Source: Candidatus Methanomethylophilaceae archaeon (GTDB lineage: Archaea > Thermoplasmatota > Thermoplasmata > Methanomassiliicoccales > Methanomethylophilaceae). From it: a DNA stretch of 38,654 nucleotides. Below are positions 25,312 to 36,293 of the stretch, one piece after another (within the stretch, counting starts at the first letter, position 1; every line of letters begins with the position of its first letter). The stretch covers positions 1 to 38,654 of the forward strand of contig JAGBGN010000107.1 of NCBI GenBank assembly GCA_017935945.1. The letters are read 5' to 3'. A program made the position numbers and the translations under genes. The notes beneath the pieces were generated by a model. That model was given only the letters and a program-made list of their open reading frames with translations, did no database searches and was not told the DNA's origin.

Positions 25312-25530
25312 TCAGGCCTTCATGATCTTCATCCATCCGCCGGATTCGTAGATCGCAAGCTTCCTGATCTCCAGAATCTCCTCGAACTCCTCCCAAGTGA
25401 TTACATCAAGCCTGTTGTTCTTCCCCTTGGTAAACTGAACACCCTCTGTGCCCTTCACCTTTCCAGGCTTGAGTCCCTTGTTCTTAGCGATCTCACGTGC
25501 CTTTGCCAGATCGATACGTTCCATTGCCAT
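25312..25530 (-). CDS. Small conserved hypothetical protein (72 aa)
   Basis: The 72-residue soluble protein is mostly charged, with MERIDLAKAREIAKNKGLKPGKVKG at the N-terminus, then EGVQFTKGKNNRLDVITWEEFEEIL and the end YESGGWMKIMKA. I recall similar short archaeal proteins of unknown function but cannot name a family. It is a real gene by its strong SD (GGAGG, 7 nt before the ATG at 25530), its length-consistent codon use and an AT-rich promoter with TATATAAA at 25562-25575. A T run on the minus strand follows the stop after about 35 nt and could terminate it. A DNA- or RNA-binding role is possible from its size and charge, but nothing shows it. Confidence 0.75.
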   Translation of the reverse strand: MAMERIDLAKAREIAKNKGLKPGKVKGTEGVQFTKGKNNRLDVITWEEFEEILEIRKLAIYESGGWMKIMKA

Positions 25531-25763
25531 AATGTGTCCTCCAGGCTAAATTTTGAACCATTTATATAGTATATAAAATATTTGATAAAAATATTCAAAA
25601 ATCCAACAATTTGAGTAATAATCCATTTTAGAGCCACATTACAGGAGATTTCTTCATTTCCATCTACCGACCCCGTCATACAACAGGATATATGGCGAAA
25701 TCATCACTCTGGTCAACAATCTACCCCGAAACCAATATAAACATGCCTACACACTCAACACCG
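25531..25763. promoter_or_regulatory. AT-rich divergent promoter region
   Basis: On the minus strand, CTATATAAATGG (around 25559-25571) should drive the 72-residue gene. On the plus strand, AATATAAA (25734-25741) is centred 26 nt before the ATG at 25764 of the phosphohexomutase-like gene, whose mRNA is then leaderless. The stretch 25560-25625 is unusually AT-rich and contains AATATT repeats (25587-25606); no gene is supported in it. Confidence 0.55.
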
Positions 25764-27122
25764 ATGGCGCAACCCGATAAGCTTCTGCTCAGGTCATCAC
25801 CGACAGAGGACACCTCCCCTGAAATGGGACTGCTGCTCGGCCATGCATTGGCTATGGACTATCATACTGTCGTTATAGCTACAGATATGATGAAGAGCAG
25901 CACGATGATGAAGGAGGCCCTTGTTTCGAGTCTTCTCGCCTCCGGAGTGGATGTAGTGGACATCGGTTGCACCTCGGCACCGGTCGCAGGCATGTCTGCA
26001 CGTCTTGGGGACTGTTGCGTCTACATATCCGAATACAGGGAATATGGCCTCATCAGCGGATACCTGCTACTGAATCCCGATGGTGGATTGTTCAGAAAGG
26101 ATCAGATAAGACATCTGGACAAGGTTTTCACCGATTCCAAACCGATGCCGGACTGCAAGAACATCGGATCGATCCGTAAGATCAACACCGCGGTGGAGGA
26201 GTACAATGTGAAATTGCGCTCCACACTTGTCGAGAGGACAGCCAGTCCCATAATCGTTGATTGCAACTGCGGAACCTCAGCGGAATCCGCCCCGCAGATA
26301 CTGAATGCCCTAGGTGCGGATGTCCTCTCCATCAATGCACAGAGGGACCTCAACTACAGGTCACGCTCCCCATCCCCCGACAGCGACCTCCATGATCTCA
26401 AGACCCTTTTGGAGGGTGAGAACGGATACATCGGTGTTTCCATCAACCTCATCGGAACACTCATGACCGTCCTTGACGAGAAGGGACGCGTGATTACACC
26501 GGAGCAGGTACTGGCACTTATCATCGCCTACTTGAAACCACAACATGTTGTCGTCCCCAATGATGTGACGTCCCTCATCGACGATGTGTTCTATGGTAGG
26601 ATAGATCTGGGCATGGATACTCCGTTCCAACGCGAGGAGGGTTCTGAATCCTCCATCATAAAAGTTGCACCGGATGCGGGAATGGTGTGTGAGGCCATCT
26701 CCGAGAACAATGCAGACTTGGGATACTTCAACGGCGGGTACATGTTCAACAACATCAGCGTCATGGCCGATGCGATACAGGCCACGGCCATACTCGCACA
26801 GCTATCCGGAAACAACAGCATCAACAGGTTGCTGGACAGCATCCCCACCTACCATTCCGATAGGAAGAGGCTTCGCTACCAGTGCACCCCTGAACAGTTC
26901 TCACGTATGATGGAGGAGAACCTGCCCGTCCTGAGATGCGATAACGTGTCACGTGACTATGGATGGAGGTTCGATTTCGATGAGGGGTGGACGCTCATAC
27001 GCTTCGCCAAGGATTCAGACGATGAGATCGAGATCGTGTCCGAGTCCACCGACAGGGCATTCCTGATCGGACTGATGGAGGTCGCCAGCGACCTCGTCGA
27101 GAGCTGCCTCATGGGTCAGTAA
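25764..27122 (+). CDS. Phosphohexomutase-fold protein with all four active-site loops degenerate
   Basis: The 452-residue protein follows archaeal phosphomannomutase/phosphoglucosamine mutase along its length: domain I helix ALVSSLLASGVDVVDIG (52-68), LLNPDGGLFRKDQI, domain II NALGADVLSIN, domain III VLDEKGRVITPEQVLALI, and domain IV DEGWTLIRF. Each catalytic loop is altered. The phosphoserine loop (TASHNP in active enzymes) reads ISEYREYG (88-95). The metal loop (DGDxDR) reads INLIGTL (227-233). The sugar loop (GGEESG) reads GYFNGGYM (320-327). The phosphate loop (RxSGTEP) reads RFAKDSDD (413-420). It cannot be a normal mutase; a sugar-phosphate sensor or structural role is possible. I start at 25764 (leaderless TATA at 25734-25741), although the frame is open from 25692. 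Confidence 0.7.
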   Translation: MAQPDKLLLRSSPTEDTSPEMGLLLGHALAMDYHTVVIATDMMKSSTMMKEALVSSLLASGVDVVDIGCTSAPVAGMSARLGDCCVYISEYREYGLISGYLLLNPDGGLFRKDQIRHLDKVFTDSKPMPDCKNIGSIRKINTAVEEYNVKLRSTLVERTASPIIVDCNCGTSAESAPQILNALGADVLSINAQRDLNYRSRSPSPDSDLHDLKTLLEGENGYIGVSINLIGTLMTVLDEKGRVITPEQVLALIIAYLKPQHVVVPNDVTSLIDDVFYGRIDLGMDTPFQREEGSESSIIKVAPDAGMVCEAISENNADLGYFNGGYMFNNISVMADAIQATAILAQLSGNNSINRLLDSIPTYHSDRKRLRYQCTPEQFSRMMEENLPVLRCDNVSRDYGWRFDFDEGWTLIRFAKDSDDEIEIVSESTDRAFLIGLMEVASDLVESCLMGQ

Positions 27123-27490
27123 ATGATCTCGAGATCCATTTGCTCACCACGGGAGTTATATGCCCTCCAACTGGAACGGTCGTAGGGCTGACAGGTTATG
27201 AAATGCACACCGCCCATGTTGCTGAAGAAGTCCAGATCCGCATCGGAAGGTTCGTTCGAATAACCCGGATGGGAATGAGCGGTTCCCGCGATACTGTAAT
27301 CCACCGGTGCCATCCACTGATTCAGGAAGCTGTGACTGTCCCCGTACACGGTTCCTGGAAGCAGGACCATCTCCGACACTATGCCATCGATCTCGCGTGT
27401 CATGCATAGGAACTCGTCGGGATACGTCGAACGTGCAGCCTCGTTGAACCCATCGATGAAATCGATGTCCACTCCCACGATACGGTTCAT
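27116..27490 (-). CDS. JAB/MPN (JAMM) metalloprotease
   Basis: The 124-residue protein has the complete JAMM zinc site: E26 (YPDEFLC), H72-x-H74-P (AHSHPG), S82 and D85 with the standard spacing. Archaeal single-domain JAMM proteins such as HvJAMM1 remove ubiquitin-like SAMP modifiers; others act on small molecules. Its 3' end overlaps the convergent phosphohexomutase-like gene by 7 bp. The start ATG at 27490 overlaps the stop of the phosphatase/NAD kinase fusion (ATGA at 27487-27490), so its translation is coupled to that enzyme. No ubiquitin-like or E1-like gene is in the window. Confidence 0.9.
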   Translation of the reverse strand: MNRIVGVDIDFIDGFNEAARSTYPDEFLCMTREIDGIVSEMVLLPGTVYGDSHSFLNQWMAPVDYSIAGTAHSHPGYSNEPSDADLDFFSNMGGVHFITCQPYDRSSWRAYNSRGEQMDLEIIY

Positions 27491-29094
27491 AGGTCGTTCA
27501 CCAGTTTCTCACGGACCCTGGAGTAGAAATCGGTCTTGAAGCGGATGAAACGTGCCTTCTTCTCAGACAACATGAAATCCACCTTGGTGCCTCCTGCGAT
27601 CTCGTACTCACCCTGACCGTCCAGGACCAATAGGCATCCCTTGTCCATCACGTTCTCCACGGTGACCTTGGATGTCGATGGGACTATGAACGGACGGGAA
27701 CTGAACTTGTACGCTGCCATGGGAACCACGATGAGTGCCTCCACATTCGGATCCATGTACGGTGCACCAAGGCTCATGGCATAACAGGTGGAACCTGTGG
27801 GGGTGGATACGATTATCCCGTCGGCACGGAGCTCGCATGCCAGGACATCATCCACATAGACCTTGTAATGGCGTATCTTGGCCACGGAATCCGTGTGCAC
27901 CACAACCTCATTGACTGAATCCGGGAGATACTCGTTGTCGTACCACGAACTCAGCTTGAACCTGTTCTCGACTATGTAGTCCTCCCTCAGCAGACGCTCG
28001 ATACCGCTCTGGATATCGTCATGGTCTATCTCCGCGAGGAATCCCACACTCCCACCATTGACACCTATGACCATGGCATCCGTGTGCTGCAGTGCACGGA
28101 GGAGTGTACCGTCTCCGCCTATGACTATGACCGTGTCCACGTCCATGGATTCTATGGGGGTGCCGGGGATGCCCATCATATCCGCTATGGCCTTGTCGAC
28201 GAAGTAGGTATGGTCCCCCAATGCATCCATCACCTGCCTCGTGTATTCGATCGCCTTGGAGATCGATGTGTTGGTGTAGATGCCGTACCTGTGTTCTGAC
28301 CTTGTGTACTTGCGCCTGACGATGAAATCGAAGACACGGACATCGTTGAATGCCAGGAAATTGGAACGGTGGTTGAGATCGAAGGGCATGTCGAGGGGCT
28401 CCCCCTGCAGATCGTAGACCTCCCCACCGGCCTCCCTGAGGATGAGGGTGCTTGCGGCTATGTCCACGACCCTGACCGAACGGGTGTAATTCTCCGATTT
28501 CATAAAGAACGCATCTGCCTCGCCCTCGGCGATGATCGCCATCTCCAGGGAAGCACATCCCAGGGAACGTGAGGATTTGACAGATTTGGCCAACTCGAAC
28601 GCATCGGCATGTGCACTGTTCCCCATGTAGATCATGACGAACAGATCGTCCATGTTCGGCTCGCGCACATGTATCGGACATCCGTTCTTGAACGCCCCCT
28701 TTCCGGATTCGGCCCACATGACGTCCCCTGTCACGGGATTGCGCAGATATGCCAACCTCATGTCGGAAAGGGAGGATGTACCGACTGCCAGGGATACCGT
28801 GTGGTAGGGGATCCCCGCGATGGCATTGGAGGTTCCATCGATCGGATCCATCACCAACGTCTCATCGGCACCGTTGTCTATGAATCCGACCTCCTCACTG
28901 AGGATGTTCAGCGGGATCTGCTCACGGTTGATGTACATGAGTGCGGCATTCTCCGCCACCTTGTCTATCTGGGAGGTCGGGGAACCATCGGCACCCATGC
29001 ACACCTTCTCACCCTTGCACTTGGAATTGGGTATCTTGCATATCGCATCCTGGACTGCATCCGCGATGGCCGAGAGTGTCTCGATGGTAATCAT
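27487..29094 (-). CDS. Inositol-monophosphatase-type / NAD kinase fusion (bifunctional NADP phosphatase/NAD kinase)
   Basis: The 535-residue protein is a fusion. Residues 1-265 form an IMPase/FBPase-type phosphatase with SEEVG (66-70), DPIDGTSN (83-90) and VVDIAASTLILREAGG (209-224; Val where IMPase has Trp). Residues 266-535 form an NAD kinase with GGDGT (326-330), a VNEVV segment near 395 and STPTGSTCYAMSLGAPY. The same fusion in Methanocaldococcus (MJ0917) has been reported to have both NADP phosphatase and NAD kinase activity, so the protein probably sets the NAD/NADP ratio. The start ATG at 29094 follows GAGGGGG. The JAMM gene is coupled downstream. Confidence 0.93.
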   Translation of the reverse strand: MITIETLSAIADAVQDAICKIPNSKCKGEKVCMGADGSPTSQIDKVAENAALMYINREQIPLNILSEEVGFIDNGADETLVMDPIDGTSNAIAGIPYHTVSLAVGTSSLSDMRLAYLRNPVTGDVMWAESGKGAFKNGCPIHVREPNMDDLFVMIYMGNSAHADAFELAKSVKSSRSLGCASLEMAIIAEGEADAFFMKSENYTRSVRVVDIAASTLILREAGGEVYDLQGEPLDMPFDLNHRSNFLAFNDVRVFDFIVRRKYTRSEHRYGIYTNTSISKAIEYTRQVMDALGDHTYFVDKAIADMMGIPGTPIESMDVDTVIVIGGDGTLLRALQHTDAMVIGVNGGSVGFLAEIDHDDIQSGIERLLREDYIVENRFKLSSWYDNEYLPDSVNEVVVHTDSVAKIRHYKVYVDDVLACELRADGIIVSTPTGSTCYAMSLGAPYMDPNVEALIVVPMAAYKFSSRPFIVPSTSKVTVENVMDKGCLLVLDGQGEYEIAGGTKVDFMLSEKKARFIRFKTDFYSRVREKLVNDL

Positions 29095-33266: not shown

Positions 33267-33325
33267 TCTTTTGTCATTTCATTGTGTAGATGCTTATTTG
33301 TCGCATCTGCGCGGGATGTGATTAT

Positions 33326-34747
33326 ATGAGTATCACGCAGACTTTGACTGATATTTTCAATCCCCTCAACACATACGTTTGGTACATTGCCTTCGTATTC
33401 CTTGTTGGATTGGGAATCTACTTCATGATCAAGCTCAAAGGTCTCCCGATTCTGAAAATCAGGGAAACCTCAAAGCTTGCTCTTGGTGGTGCTATGGAGG
33501 AGAGCGGAAAAACCGTCTCTTCCTTCGAAGCATTCTGTATCGGACTTGGAGCTCGTGTCGGTGTAGGTAACATCGCAGGAGTTGCAAGTGCAATCGTCCT
33601 CGGAGGACCTGGTGCCGTGTTCTGGATGTGGATCTTCGCAATCATCGGATCCGCAAGCAGTTTCATGGAATCCACCCTCGCCCAGATCTTCAAAGAGAAG
33701 AAATCTGACGGTCAGTTCCACAGTGGACCTGCATACTATGTGCAGAAGGGACTCAAGAGCCGCCCCCTGGCAATCGTCCTGGCAATCCTCATCGTCATCA
33801 CCTTCGGTATCGGATTCGTCGGTGTCCAGGCTGCAAACTCCGTGAGTGCACTCGCTAACGCATTCTCCTTCGAGAACAGCACATACGTCTTCGCAACCAT
33901 CATCGCATTCGCAGCCGCCATCATCATCTTCGGCGGTGTCAAGAGGATCGCATCCTTCTCCGCGAAGGTCGTTCCCCCCATGGCAGTCCTCTGGCTCCTC
34001 CTCGGTGCAGTCGTCATCGCCATGAACTACGACCACATCATCGATGCAATCTCCATGATCTTCACCTACGCATTCCAGTGGGAGTCCGCTGCAGGAGGTC
34101 TTCTCGGAGCAGTCATCATGAACGGTCTCAAGCGTGGAGTCTTCTCCAACGAGGCAGGTCTCGGTTCCATCGCAAACATCGCAGGTACTGCAGACACCAA
34201 GCACCCCGTCAAGCAGGGTATGATCCAGTCCTTCGGAACCCTCGTCGACACCCTTGTCGTCTGTACCTTCACCGCACTCGTCATCCTGACCGCATTCGGT
34301 AGCTACGAGGCAGTCCTCGGAACCGGAATCACAAAGGCACCCCTTGTCCAGGAAGCAATGAGCATGACCATCGGAGATGTCGGACCCATACTCGTATCCC
34401 TGTTCATGGTCGTCTTCGCTTTCACCAGTCTCATCGGATACTACACCATGAGTGAGTCCAACATCAGGTTCGTATCCGACAACAGGACCTTCGTGTTCAT
34501 CGTCCGTATCCTCGTCATCGTTGTCGCATTCCTTGCAGCAATCGCTGGTGCAGACCTCATGGAGCTCATCTGTGACACATTCATGGCAGCCATGGGTGCA
34601 GTCAACATGCTCTGCGTGTTCCTTCTCAGCAAGCACGCTTTCCAGGCACTCAAGGACTGGAAGGCCCAGAAGGATGCAGGTGTCGAAGAGCCTGTCTTCC
34701 ACCGTGATGCTCTGGACGACCCGTCCGGAGTCACCGAGTGGGAGTGA
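33326..34747 (+). CDS. Na+/alanine (AGCS family) symporter, copy 1
   Basis: The 473-residue membrane protein is of the alanine/glycine:cation symporter family (LeuT fold). Landmarks are FEAFCIGLGARVGVGNIAGVA (TM2), GGPGAVFWMW, FSNEAGLGSIANIAGTAD and a cytoplasmic C-terminus ending GVTEWE. The characterised archaeal member (Methanococcus AgcS) imports L- and D-alanine with Na+. The ATG at 33326 has GTGAT at 33317-33321; an earlier frame start is unsupported. Codon choice is extremely biased (mostly atc, gtc, gca, gga), stronger than in copy 2, which suggests high expression. Confidence 0.93.
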   Translation: MSITQTLTDIFNPLNTYVWYIAFVFLVGLGIYFMIKLKGLPILKIRETSKLALGGAMEESGKTVSSFEAFCIGLGARVGVGNIAGVASAIVLGGPGAVFWMWIFAIIGSASSFMESTLAQIFKEKKSDGQFHSGPAYYVQKGLKSRPLAIVLAILIVITFGIGFVGVQAANSVSALANAFSFENSTYVFATIIAFAAAIIIFGGVKRIASFSAKVVPPMAVLWLLLGAVVIAMNYDHIIDAISMIFTYAFQWESAAGGLLGAVIMNGLKRGVFSNEAGLGSIANIAGTADTKHPVKQGMIQSFGTLVDTLVVCTFTALVILTAFGSYEAVLGTGITKAPLVQEAMSMTIGDVGPILVSLFMVVFAFTSLIGYYTMSESNIRFVSDNRTFVFIVRILVIVVAFLAAIAGADLMELICDTFMAAMGAVNMLCVFLLSKHAFQALKDWKAQKDAGVEEPVFHRDALDDPSGVTEWE

Positions 34748-34758
34748 TCCAATCAAAA

Positions 34759-34776
34759 GCCGGGGCCAGCCCCGGC
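34759..34776 (+). terminator. GC hairpin after the first alanine symporter
   Basis: GCCGGGG (34759-34765), CCAG (34766-34769) and CCCCGGC (34770-34776) form a 7-bp stem with a tetraloop, 12 nt after the stop. It is a likely 3' end for copy 1, which would separate its transcript from that of copy 2. Confidence 0.6.
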
Positions 34777-34836
34777 AAACCCTTTCCTTCAAACCTCAGA
34801 ACATGATGCGATTCTCAATACAGTGAACCTCTTACG

Positions 34837-34865
34837 ATCACGATAAGGGAACCGCTTATCGTGAT
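34837..34865 (+). promoter_or_regulatory. 11-bp perfect inverted repeat covering the Shine-Dalgarno of the second alanine symporter
   Basis: ATCACGATAAG (34837-34847) and CTTATCGTGAT (34855-34865) are perfect inverted copies with a 7-nt spacer. The last five bases, GTGAT, are the SD, 3 nt before the ATG at 34869. In RNA the hairpin would sequester the ribosome binding site; in DNA it could be an operator. Confidence 0.6.
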
Positions 34866-34868
34866 ACT

Positions 34869-36293
34869 ATGACGATAATCGACACTTTCAACGATGCATT
34901 GGGTGTTGTTAACACATACGTATGGTATGTAGCATTCATCCTACTCATAGGTGCAGGCCTATACTTCACATACAAACTACGTGGTCTGCAGATTTTGAAA
35001 ATCAGGGAAACTGCCAAACTAGCCCTGTCCGGAATCGGTGAAGGTGACAAGACCGAGGCGGTCTCATCCTTCGAAGCATTCTGCATAGGTGTGGGAACAC
35101 GTGTCGGTGTGGGAAACATCGCAGGAGTCGCCATGGCCATCGTCGCTGGTGGTCCTGGAGCAGTGTTCTGGATGTGGGTCTTCGCAATCATAGGATCCGC
35201 AAGCAGTTTCGTTGAATCCACACTATCACAGCTGTTCAAGGAGAAGAAAGAGGATGGACAGTACCATGGAGGTCCCGCCTATTACATCCAGAAAGGACTT
35301 GGTACCAGGAAAGTGGCCATACTGATGGCTTTCCTCATCGCCATGATGACCGGTATCGGGTTCTGTGCGGCACAGGCATCCAGTTCCGTAGAAGCCCTTA
35401 CATCCACATTCGTCTTCGACAACAACACACTGGTGTTCGGACTCGTCATCACCATCCTTACCGGACTCATCATCTTCGGCGGAATGAAAAGAATCGCAAC
35501 ATTCTCATCGAAGATCGTTCCCCTCATGGCTGTTGCTTGGCTGGCCCTGGGAACCATCACCATTGTGATGAACATCGATGGATTGATCAACGCATTCGTC
35601 ATGATCTTCTCATACGCCTTCGGATTCGAACAGGTCGCAGGAGGTCTCCTGGGAGCGGTCATCATGACCGGATTGAAACGTGGAATATTCTCCAACGAAT
35701 CCGGTCTCGGTACCATCGCCAACATAGCAGGTACGGCCGATGTGAAACACCCTGTGAAGCAGGGGCTCATCCAATGCTTCGGAACACTCGTGGACACACT
35801 CGTCGTCTGTACCTTCACCGCAATGGTCATCCTAACAGCGTTCGATGACTATGGTGCCATACTCGACACGGGACTATCCAATTCACCTCTTGTGGAATAT
35901 GTCCTGAACGATACGATAGGTCACATCGGATCCATACTCATGTCATTGTTCCTGCTGTTCTTTGCTTTCACCAGTCTACTCGGTAACTATGCAATCAGTG
36001 AGACAAATGTCAGATTCATCTCCGACAGGAAGATGTCCATCATGGTTATGCGCATAGCAGTTGTCGTTACGGTATTCATCGCTTCCCTGATCGGTGCAGA
36101 TGCATCGATATTGATCAGTGACACGATCATGGCGTTCGCAGGCGTCGTCAACATCTCATGCGTCATCCTTCTCAGTAGTCTGGCGTTCCAGGCATATGCG
36201 GATTGGAGGAAACAGAAGTCAGAAGGAATCGAAGACCCGGTATTCCACCGCGATACCCTCGATGATGCTACCGGTATAACCGAATGGGAGTAA
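34869..36293 (+). CDS. Na+/alanine (AGCS family) symporter, copy 2
   Basis: The 474-residue paralogue of the preceding gene is co-linear with it over its whole length: FEAFCIGVGTRVGVGNIAGVA, GGPGAVFWMW, FSNESGLGTIANIAGTAD and end GITEWE. One visible difference is NEAG to NESG in the conserved motif near the substrate and Na+ site, which may tune substrate or ion use. Codon use is less biased than copy 1, so the duplication is not recent or the expression differs. The start ATG at 34869 follows GTGAT, which is in the arm of a perfect inverted repeat. A hairpin after the stop separates it from convergent proB. Confidence 0.92.
   Translation: MTIIDTFNDALGVVNTYVWYVAFILLIGAGLYFTYKLRGLQILKIRETAKLALSGIGEGDKTEAVSSFEAFCIGVGTRVGVGNIAGVAMAIVAGGPGAVFWMWVFAIIGSASSFVESTLSQLFKEKKEDGQYHGGPAYYIQKGLGTRKVAILMAFLIAMMTGIGFCAAQASSSVEALTSTFVFDNNTLVFGLVITILTGLIIFGGMKRIATFSSKIVPLMAVAWLALGTITIVMNIDGLINAFVMIFSYAFGFEQVAGGLLGAVIMTGLKRGIFSNESGLGTIANIAGTADVKHPVKQGLIQCFGTLVDTLVVCTFTAMVILTAFDDYGAILDTGLSNSPLVEYVLNDTIGHIGSILMSLFLLFFAFTSLLGNYAISETNVRFISDRKMSIMVMRIAVVVTVFIASLIGADASILISDTIMAFAGVVNISCVILLSSLAFQAYADWRKQKSEGIEDPVFHRDTLDDATGITEWE

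Follow-up and report, generated by a model that had tools for sequence, protein, structure and literature searches.

The window analysed here is a stretch of 38,654 nucleotides from a Candidatus Methanomethylophilaceae archaeon. At positions 25764–27122 of its forward strand lies the gene for a putative pseudoenzyme of the phosphohexomutase fold (452 residues plus stop), the orthologue of a GlmM-type mutase found throughout the order. The frame is open from the ATG at 25764 to the stop codon at 27120–27122; an upstream ATG at 25692 is also in frame, and the ATG at 25764 is the start common to the orthologues (MxxxDRLLLRSS...). A TATA-like box, AATATAAA, occupies 25734–25741 on the same strand, approximately 25 bp 5′ of this ATG, and comparison of upstream regions reveals AATAT(C/G)AA or a similar element at this position in most orthologues of the clade that shares the altered protein. 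The spacing and retention of this element make a leaderless promoter plausible.

The gene is flanked upstream by a divergent gene for a 72-residue protein (25315–25530, reverse strand), which matched no Pfam family and is conserved and syntenic across the order. Downstream, a convergent gene for a Prok-JAB domain protein (27116–27490, reverse strand; PF14464, 3.4e-8), likewise syntenic order-wide, overlaps the mutase stop codon and is followed by an inositol-monophosphatase/NAD-kinase fusion gene (27487–29094, reverse strand), recognized by Pfam match and locus comparison. The monophosphatase and kinase form a single fused ORF in the clade with degenerate mutases and two adjacent ORFs where the mutase loops are intact. 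Elsewhere in the window, at 33290–36293, are two consecutive sodium:alanine symporter genes (PF01235), which, among the compared loci, border this site only in the close relative G087.

Profile and structure comparisons both place the protein in the alpha-D-phosphohexomutase fold over its full length. The NCBIfam model of archaeal GlmM (TIGR03990) matches residues 12–440 with 150.7 bits (E = 5.7e-44), a score well below the curated cut-off of 439, such that the protein falls outside the equivalog; three intact orthologues score 441–483 bits. Pfam PGM_PMM_I matches above its cut-off (37.5 bits) and PGM_PMM_II just under (29.0 against 29.3). In the PDB, phmmer aligns the full length with 9du5 from Thermococcus (1.2e-25) and 1wqa from Pyrococcus (9e-24), archaeal GlmM or PMM/PGM enzymes with which the protein is co-linear at ~21% identity. 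The AlphaFold2 model, built from 79 homologues, has a mean pLDDT of 90.4 and a pTM of 0.90 and shows the same four-domain alpha/beta architecture. The best Foldseek match is again 9du5 (6.6e-36), archaeal PMM/PGM structures match at E = 1e-34 or better, and the TM-scores for 9du5 and 1wqa are 0.80–0.82 over more than 450 columns.

Although the scaffold is that of archaeal GlmM, alignments demonstrate that all four active-site loops are replaced. Where the enzymes have the phosphoserine loop TASHNP, the window protein has SEYREY (residues 89–94; 26028–26045, forward strand as for all segments of the gene), with Tyr at the phosphoserine position itself, a position that Pro fills in 79% of the clade after weighting by genus. 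The metal loop DGDGDR has become NLIGTL (residues 228–233; 26445–26462), the sugar loop GGEPSGT has become G-YFNGG and misses its Glu (residues 320–325; 26721–26738), and the phosphate loop RxSGTEP is replaced by RFAKDSDD (residues 413–420; 27000–27023). Thus none of the motifs T-x-S-H-N-P, D-G-D-x-D-R, G-G-E-x-S/N-G and R-x-S-G-T-E-P is found. The losses also take in loop 0, which reads FGSSGIRG in relatives, and the lysine that follows loop 1, and the consensus alignment reveals an insertion of ~17 residues in domain III, within residues 277–297 (26592–26654), that is not seen in active orthologues. Because the serine position lacks a phosphorylatable residue, the metal site is incomplete and the phosphate loop is gone, the protein is probably incapable of mutase chemistry. 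The initial annotation, which had described a full-length phosphohexomutase fold with every catalytic loop replaced and had proposed a profile search and structure prediction as checks, is borne out by both and by the alignment, the losses extending further than it had noted.

Homologues were found in 142 of 147 genomes of the order that were searched. Perfect loops (TASHNP, DGDGDR, GGEPSG and RxSGTEP) are found in 32 sequences, which come from families f2–f6 and, within f1, the family of the window, from genera g4, g10 and g13. The degenerate version is represented by 71 sequences with uninterrupted frames of ~420–480 residues from 11 genera of the Methanomethylophilaceae, roughly the host-associated clade of the Methanomassiliicoccales (PMC7824343). 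The window's genus, g1, groups with UBA71 (Methanomethylophilaceae), g7 with Ca. Methanomethylophilus, g9 with Ca. Methanoplasma and g8 with Ca. Methanomicula labiotermitis; the intact-loop genus g10, going by its isolate names, derives from sediment metagenomes. One member of the family, Methanomethylophilus alvi, has been grown in pure culture (PMC10673518).

The order small protein, phosphohexomutase, JAB protein, NAD kinase is present in 46–48 of the 48 loci examined, so that degenerate and intact genes sit at one and the same locus, making the intact GlmM-type mutase of the order the positional orthologue of the window protein. An intermediate state is found in genus g8, where the protein is half decayed (in G050 the loops read GVSGVSG, DGNGSR, GGEPSG and RISGSEN). 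A further state is clean deletion, seen at this site in G049, G053 and G028, from which it follows that the gene is dispensable in some lineages. In the deletion loci L159, L160 and L162, ~200–460 bp separate the 72-residue gene from the JAB gene, and the mutase is missing from this interval. Since the neighbours persist where the pseudo-mutase is deleted, adjacency alone is weak evidence for a functional link to the JAB, NAD kinase or 72-residue proteins, and such a link was set aside.

Phylogeny establishes a single origin of the loop loss. The degenerate sequences form one clade nested among the intact f1 sequences in the full alignment (SH-aLRT 99), after removal of the loop columns (SH-aLRT 99–100), and in a tree of the neighbouring NAD kinase/inositol-monophosphatase protein (SH-aLRT 99). 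Several independent losses are thus unsupported, as all three trees give one clade and two of them are free of loop columns. In both trees that were drawn, the deepest branch of the clade is the half-decayed genus g8.

The gene is nevertheless under constraint. In close pairs with unsaturated synonymous sites, dN/dS (NG86) is 0.067 (L022/L089), 0.082 (L046/L048), 0.093 (L007/L086), 0.094 (L034/L035) and 0.159 (L030/L092), and intact orthologues give ~0.05–0.16. More diverged pairs yield 0.2–0.4 and were not relied on, because of near-saturated synonymous sites or the distance between the sequences. Values for the JAB gene were disregarded, as they had been computed on over-long stop-to-stop ORFs. 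Relative to NAD kinase, branch lengths are ~2.1-fold in the clade versus 1.0 in the active lines, so that by these sequence measures the pseudo-mutase evolves faster yet remains constrained. A pseudogene was rejected, as neither frame disruption among the 71 orthologues nor relaxed constraint in the close pairs (0.06–0.16) was seen. The claim that the gene is maintained rather than decaying thus stands up to the orthologue alignment that the initial annotation had suggested for dN/dS and loop conservation, and the retained promoter element agrees with it. That annotation had also held that orthologues with normal loops would speak against its reading; such orthologues do exist outside the clade, whereas inside it the loops are lost, and the 32 intact sequences point to an enzyme in the ancestor whose site was later lost rather than to an error of observation. 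With catalytic residues lost while the fold and purifying selection persist, the window protein is very probably a pseudoenzyme.

The intact loci reveal what else has disappeared. In all of them (f2–f6 and genera g4, g10 and g13 of f1) the mutase gene is followed on its 3′ side by a gene for a 408-residue protein that combines an NTP-transferase domain with hexapeptide repeats of the left-handed beta-helix type and whose closest solved relative is the dual sugar-1-phosphate nucleotidylyltransferase ST0452 (5z09/2ggo, E = 9.8e-89). This partner is absent from the window and from every degenerate locus, and genome-wide the degenerate clade contains only distant paralogues of it (E no better than ~1e-36, versus 1e-69 or better). 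GlmS scores above cut-off in all 19 intact-loop genomes tested, versus none of 32 from the degenerate clade, and the window genome, unlike those of its GlmM-bearing relatives, has neither GlmS nor the partner nucleotidyltransferase. A second GlmU-like enzyme, which adjoins GlmS in relatives, is also missing from the clade. We interpret these absences as loss of the entire GlmS–GlmM–GlmU route to UDP-GlcNAc. The neighbouring nucleotidyltransferase and the co-loss of GlmS suggest that the ancestral mutase acted on the GlmM substrate, although both active paralogues score above the archaeal GlmM cut-off. Neither GlmS nor the nucleotidyltransferase is present any longer in those g8 genomes that were tested; as g8 is also the earliest branch, the pathway was lost before or during early loop decay. 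Since there was a single evolutionary transition, the association between loop loss and pathway loss counts only once. The window protein is, then, a stranded GlmM-type mutase, the last remnant of an amino-sugar pathway that has otherwise been lost.

Within the clade, 62 positions that at least 90% of active orthologues share drop below 50% conservation, charged cleft residues included. By window entropy, the phosphate loop ranks at the 96th percentile and loops 0 and 3B each at the 87th, and the sugar loop is average. Loop 2, the former metal loop, is the only ex-catalytic loop that is strongly conserved (7th percentile), reading NGDGTR or NRIGTL. As this loop is conserved and the sugar loop average, a ligand or metal role may remain at loop 2. 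Residues conserved specifically in the clade include Tyr 433 (99%), H147Y and Pro 259 (both 95%), and D228N (93%), which replaces the first Asp of the metal loop.

Other mutase genes show variation of their own. A third phosphohexomutase paralogue, adjoining an agmatinase-like gene, occurs in the window's genus (L165:2961–4313, L166:2901–4244 and L169:2936–4093 on the forward strand; L167:2687–4126 on the reverse), and it is also found at a contig end in the window genome (G000:C42; L168:6986–7768, reverse strand). It keeps most loops in G074 and G076, with STTE replacing SGTE, and has lost them in G078 and G073; a second mutase is thus decaying in this genus. The PMM/PGM-type paralogue of G038 (L079:3968–5335, reverse strand) has the metal loop DADADR instead of DGDADR. 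STT3-domain matches in the order (G142:C1, G135:C1, G005:C5 and others) lie mostly in very long open frames of ~1,100–2,400 residues; they are uneven across the clade, with no match in most degenerate genera outside g1, and were given no weight as evidence.

A mechanism can be proposed that would account for these observations. The gene would be a vertical descendant of the GlmM-type phosphoglucosamine mutase of the order, whose gene, in relatives that fall outside the clade, is paired, operon-like, with that of an ST0452/GlmU-like sugar-1-phosphate nucleotidyltransferase. An ancestor of the host-associated core Methanomethylophilaceae would then have lost the GlmS, GlmM and GlmU steps leading to UDP-GlcNAc, with GlmS, the GlmS-adjacent nucleotidyltransferase and the mutase's own partner all vanishing. 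Step by step, the mutase would subsequently have shed all four catalytic loops (phosphoserine, metal, sugar and phosphate), the four-domain scaffold, promoter element and reading frame being retained under purifying selection. The remaining role may be non-catalytic, in protein binding or as a scaffold, an uncertain proposal that we hold to be somewhat better than an even bet; binding would probably involve the conserved scaffold surfaces of domains I–III and the C-terminal helix (AES-DkaYL motif), not the old cleft. A pre-existing second role of GlmM that outlived catalysis would be the likeliest route, because in Firmicutes the active GlmM is already engaged in contacts with other proteins, acting as a protein-binding regulator (PMC8573169). 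As a whole, from GlmM descent through pathway loss and stepwise loop loss to a binding or scaffold role, this account seems to us moderately probable.

In another reading, suggested by the initial annotation, the protein would be a regulatory or structural subunit of a true mutase, the dead and the live protein forming a heterodimer. A candidate partner is at hand, as the window genome (G000:C69) and nearly all relatives, including almost every genome of the clade, also encode an intact mutase of PMM/PGM type that is closest to 1wqa, and GlmM-type mutases dimerize through domain 1 (PMC8573169). The two genes are unlinked, however, and three g8 genomes (G048, G049 and G053) keep the paralogue while no pseudo-mutase was found in them. 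The converse is seen in genus g5, where an intact phosphohexomutase was detected in none of four genomes (G027–G030; in descending order of completeness 96, 84, 79 and 79%), yet G027 has the pseudo-mutase. This lineage argues against an obligate partnership and weakens a reading that we consider unlikely. The same annotation had offered a sugar-phosphate-binding regulator, that is, a sensor of sugar phosphates or sugar nucleotides whose cleft still binds ligand and reports to another protein, as PGM5, which binds glucose-1-phosphate without turnover (PMC7761743), might suggest. In its favour are a fairly conserved sugar loop and a loop 2 that is well conserved inside g7 and g9 (NGDGTR, G..DGT), but few segments vary more across the clade than the phosphate loop, loop 0 and loop 3B, and the charged cleft residues are among the 62 positions lost. 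Such variability speaks against binding of the old style and for a role of the scaffold surface, which leaves the sensor unsupported and, in our judgement, rather doubtful.

Slow decay would make the gene a pseudogene in waiting, kept by chance after the pathway was lost; deletion in several sub-lineages, a rate about twice that of NAD kinase and the loop losses of the third paralogue in the same genus all agree with this. Given the low dN/dS of close pairs, the 71 uninterrupted frames in 11 genera, the retained promoter element and the clade-specific conserved residues, we regard it as very unlikely. New catalysis by the old fold, at a site rebuilt in part from loop 2 (N-G-D-G-T-R), would explain why this loop alone is strongly conserved among the former catalytic loops, with its first Asp changed to Asn in 93%, and why H147Y is fixed at 95%. 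But loop 2 in the window's genus is mostly NRIGTL, which has no acidic residue, no other conserved polar cluster obviously replaces the lost residues, and a structural turn would explain the conservation equally well, making a rebuilt active site highly improbable. A non-catalytic binding or scaffold role thus remains the reading we favour.

Extended to the lineage, the binding or scaffold reading would describe an archaeal pseudoenzyme of at least ten genera, a biosynthetic mutase stripped of its site after its pathway was lost in gut methanogens and given a new non-catalytic role, with g8 as the intermediate; we lean towards this picture. Intact, partly decayed, fully decayed and cleanly deleted states all survive at one syntenic site, so that the conversion of an enzyme to a pseudoenzyme can be tested step by step. 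There is also a practical consequence, as homology-based annotation could label the proteins of the clade as mutases and credit gut methanogens with an amino-sugar step that is probably absent, since the clade is without GlmS and GlmU-like enzymes.

Two known systems invite comparison. In Firmicutes, GlmM inhibits the diadenylate cyclase CdaA/DacA (7ojs, 7olh, 9g69), which shows a GlmM-type protein acting through protein–protein contact (PMC8573169, PMC6368335). The partner must differ here: the DAC domain (PF02457) was found in none of 40 genomes of the order, whereas 11 of 14 control genomes were positive in the same search, and a c-di-AMP cyclase partner of the CdaA/DacA type is thereby excluded. 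In the literature searched we found no paper on an archaeal phosphohexomutase pseudoenzyme, the best known of the fold being vertebrate PGM5. PGM5, or aciculin (6y8x–6y8z), is the closest functional precedent, likewise an inactive phosphohexomutase kept as a non-enzymatic protein, with cytoskeletal partners and scaffold roles (dystrophin, utrophin, filamin C and Xin; PMC7761743). However, PGM5 retains its substrate site (PMC7761743), whereas in the archaeal protein the site is erased, and the latter therefore goes further. Moreover, PGM5 is a paralogue that exists beside active PGM1, whereas the archaeal protein is orthologous to an enzyme that lost its entire pathway.
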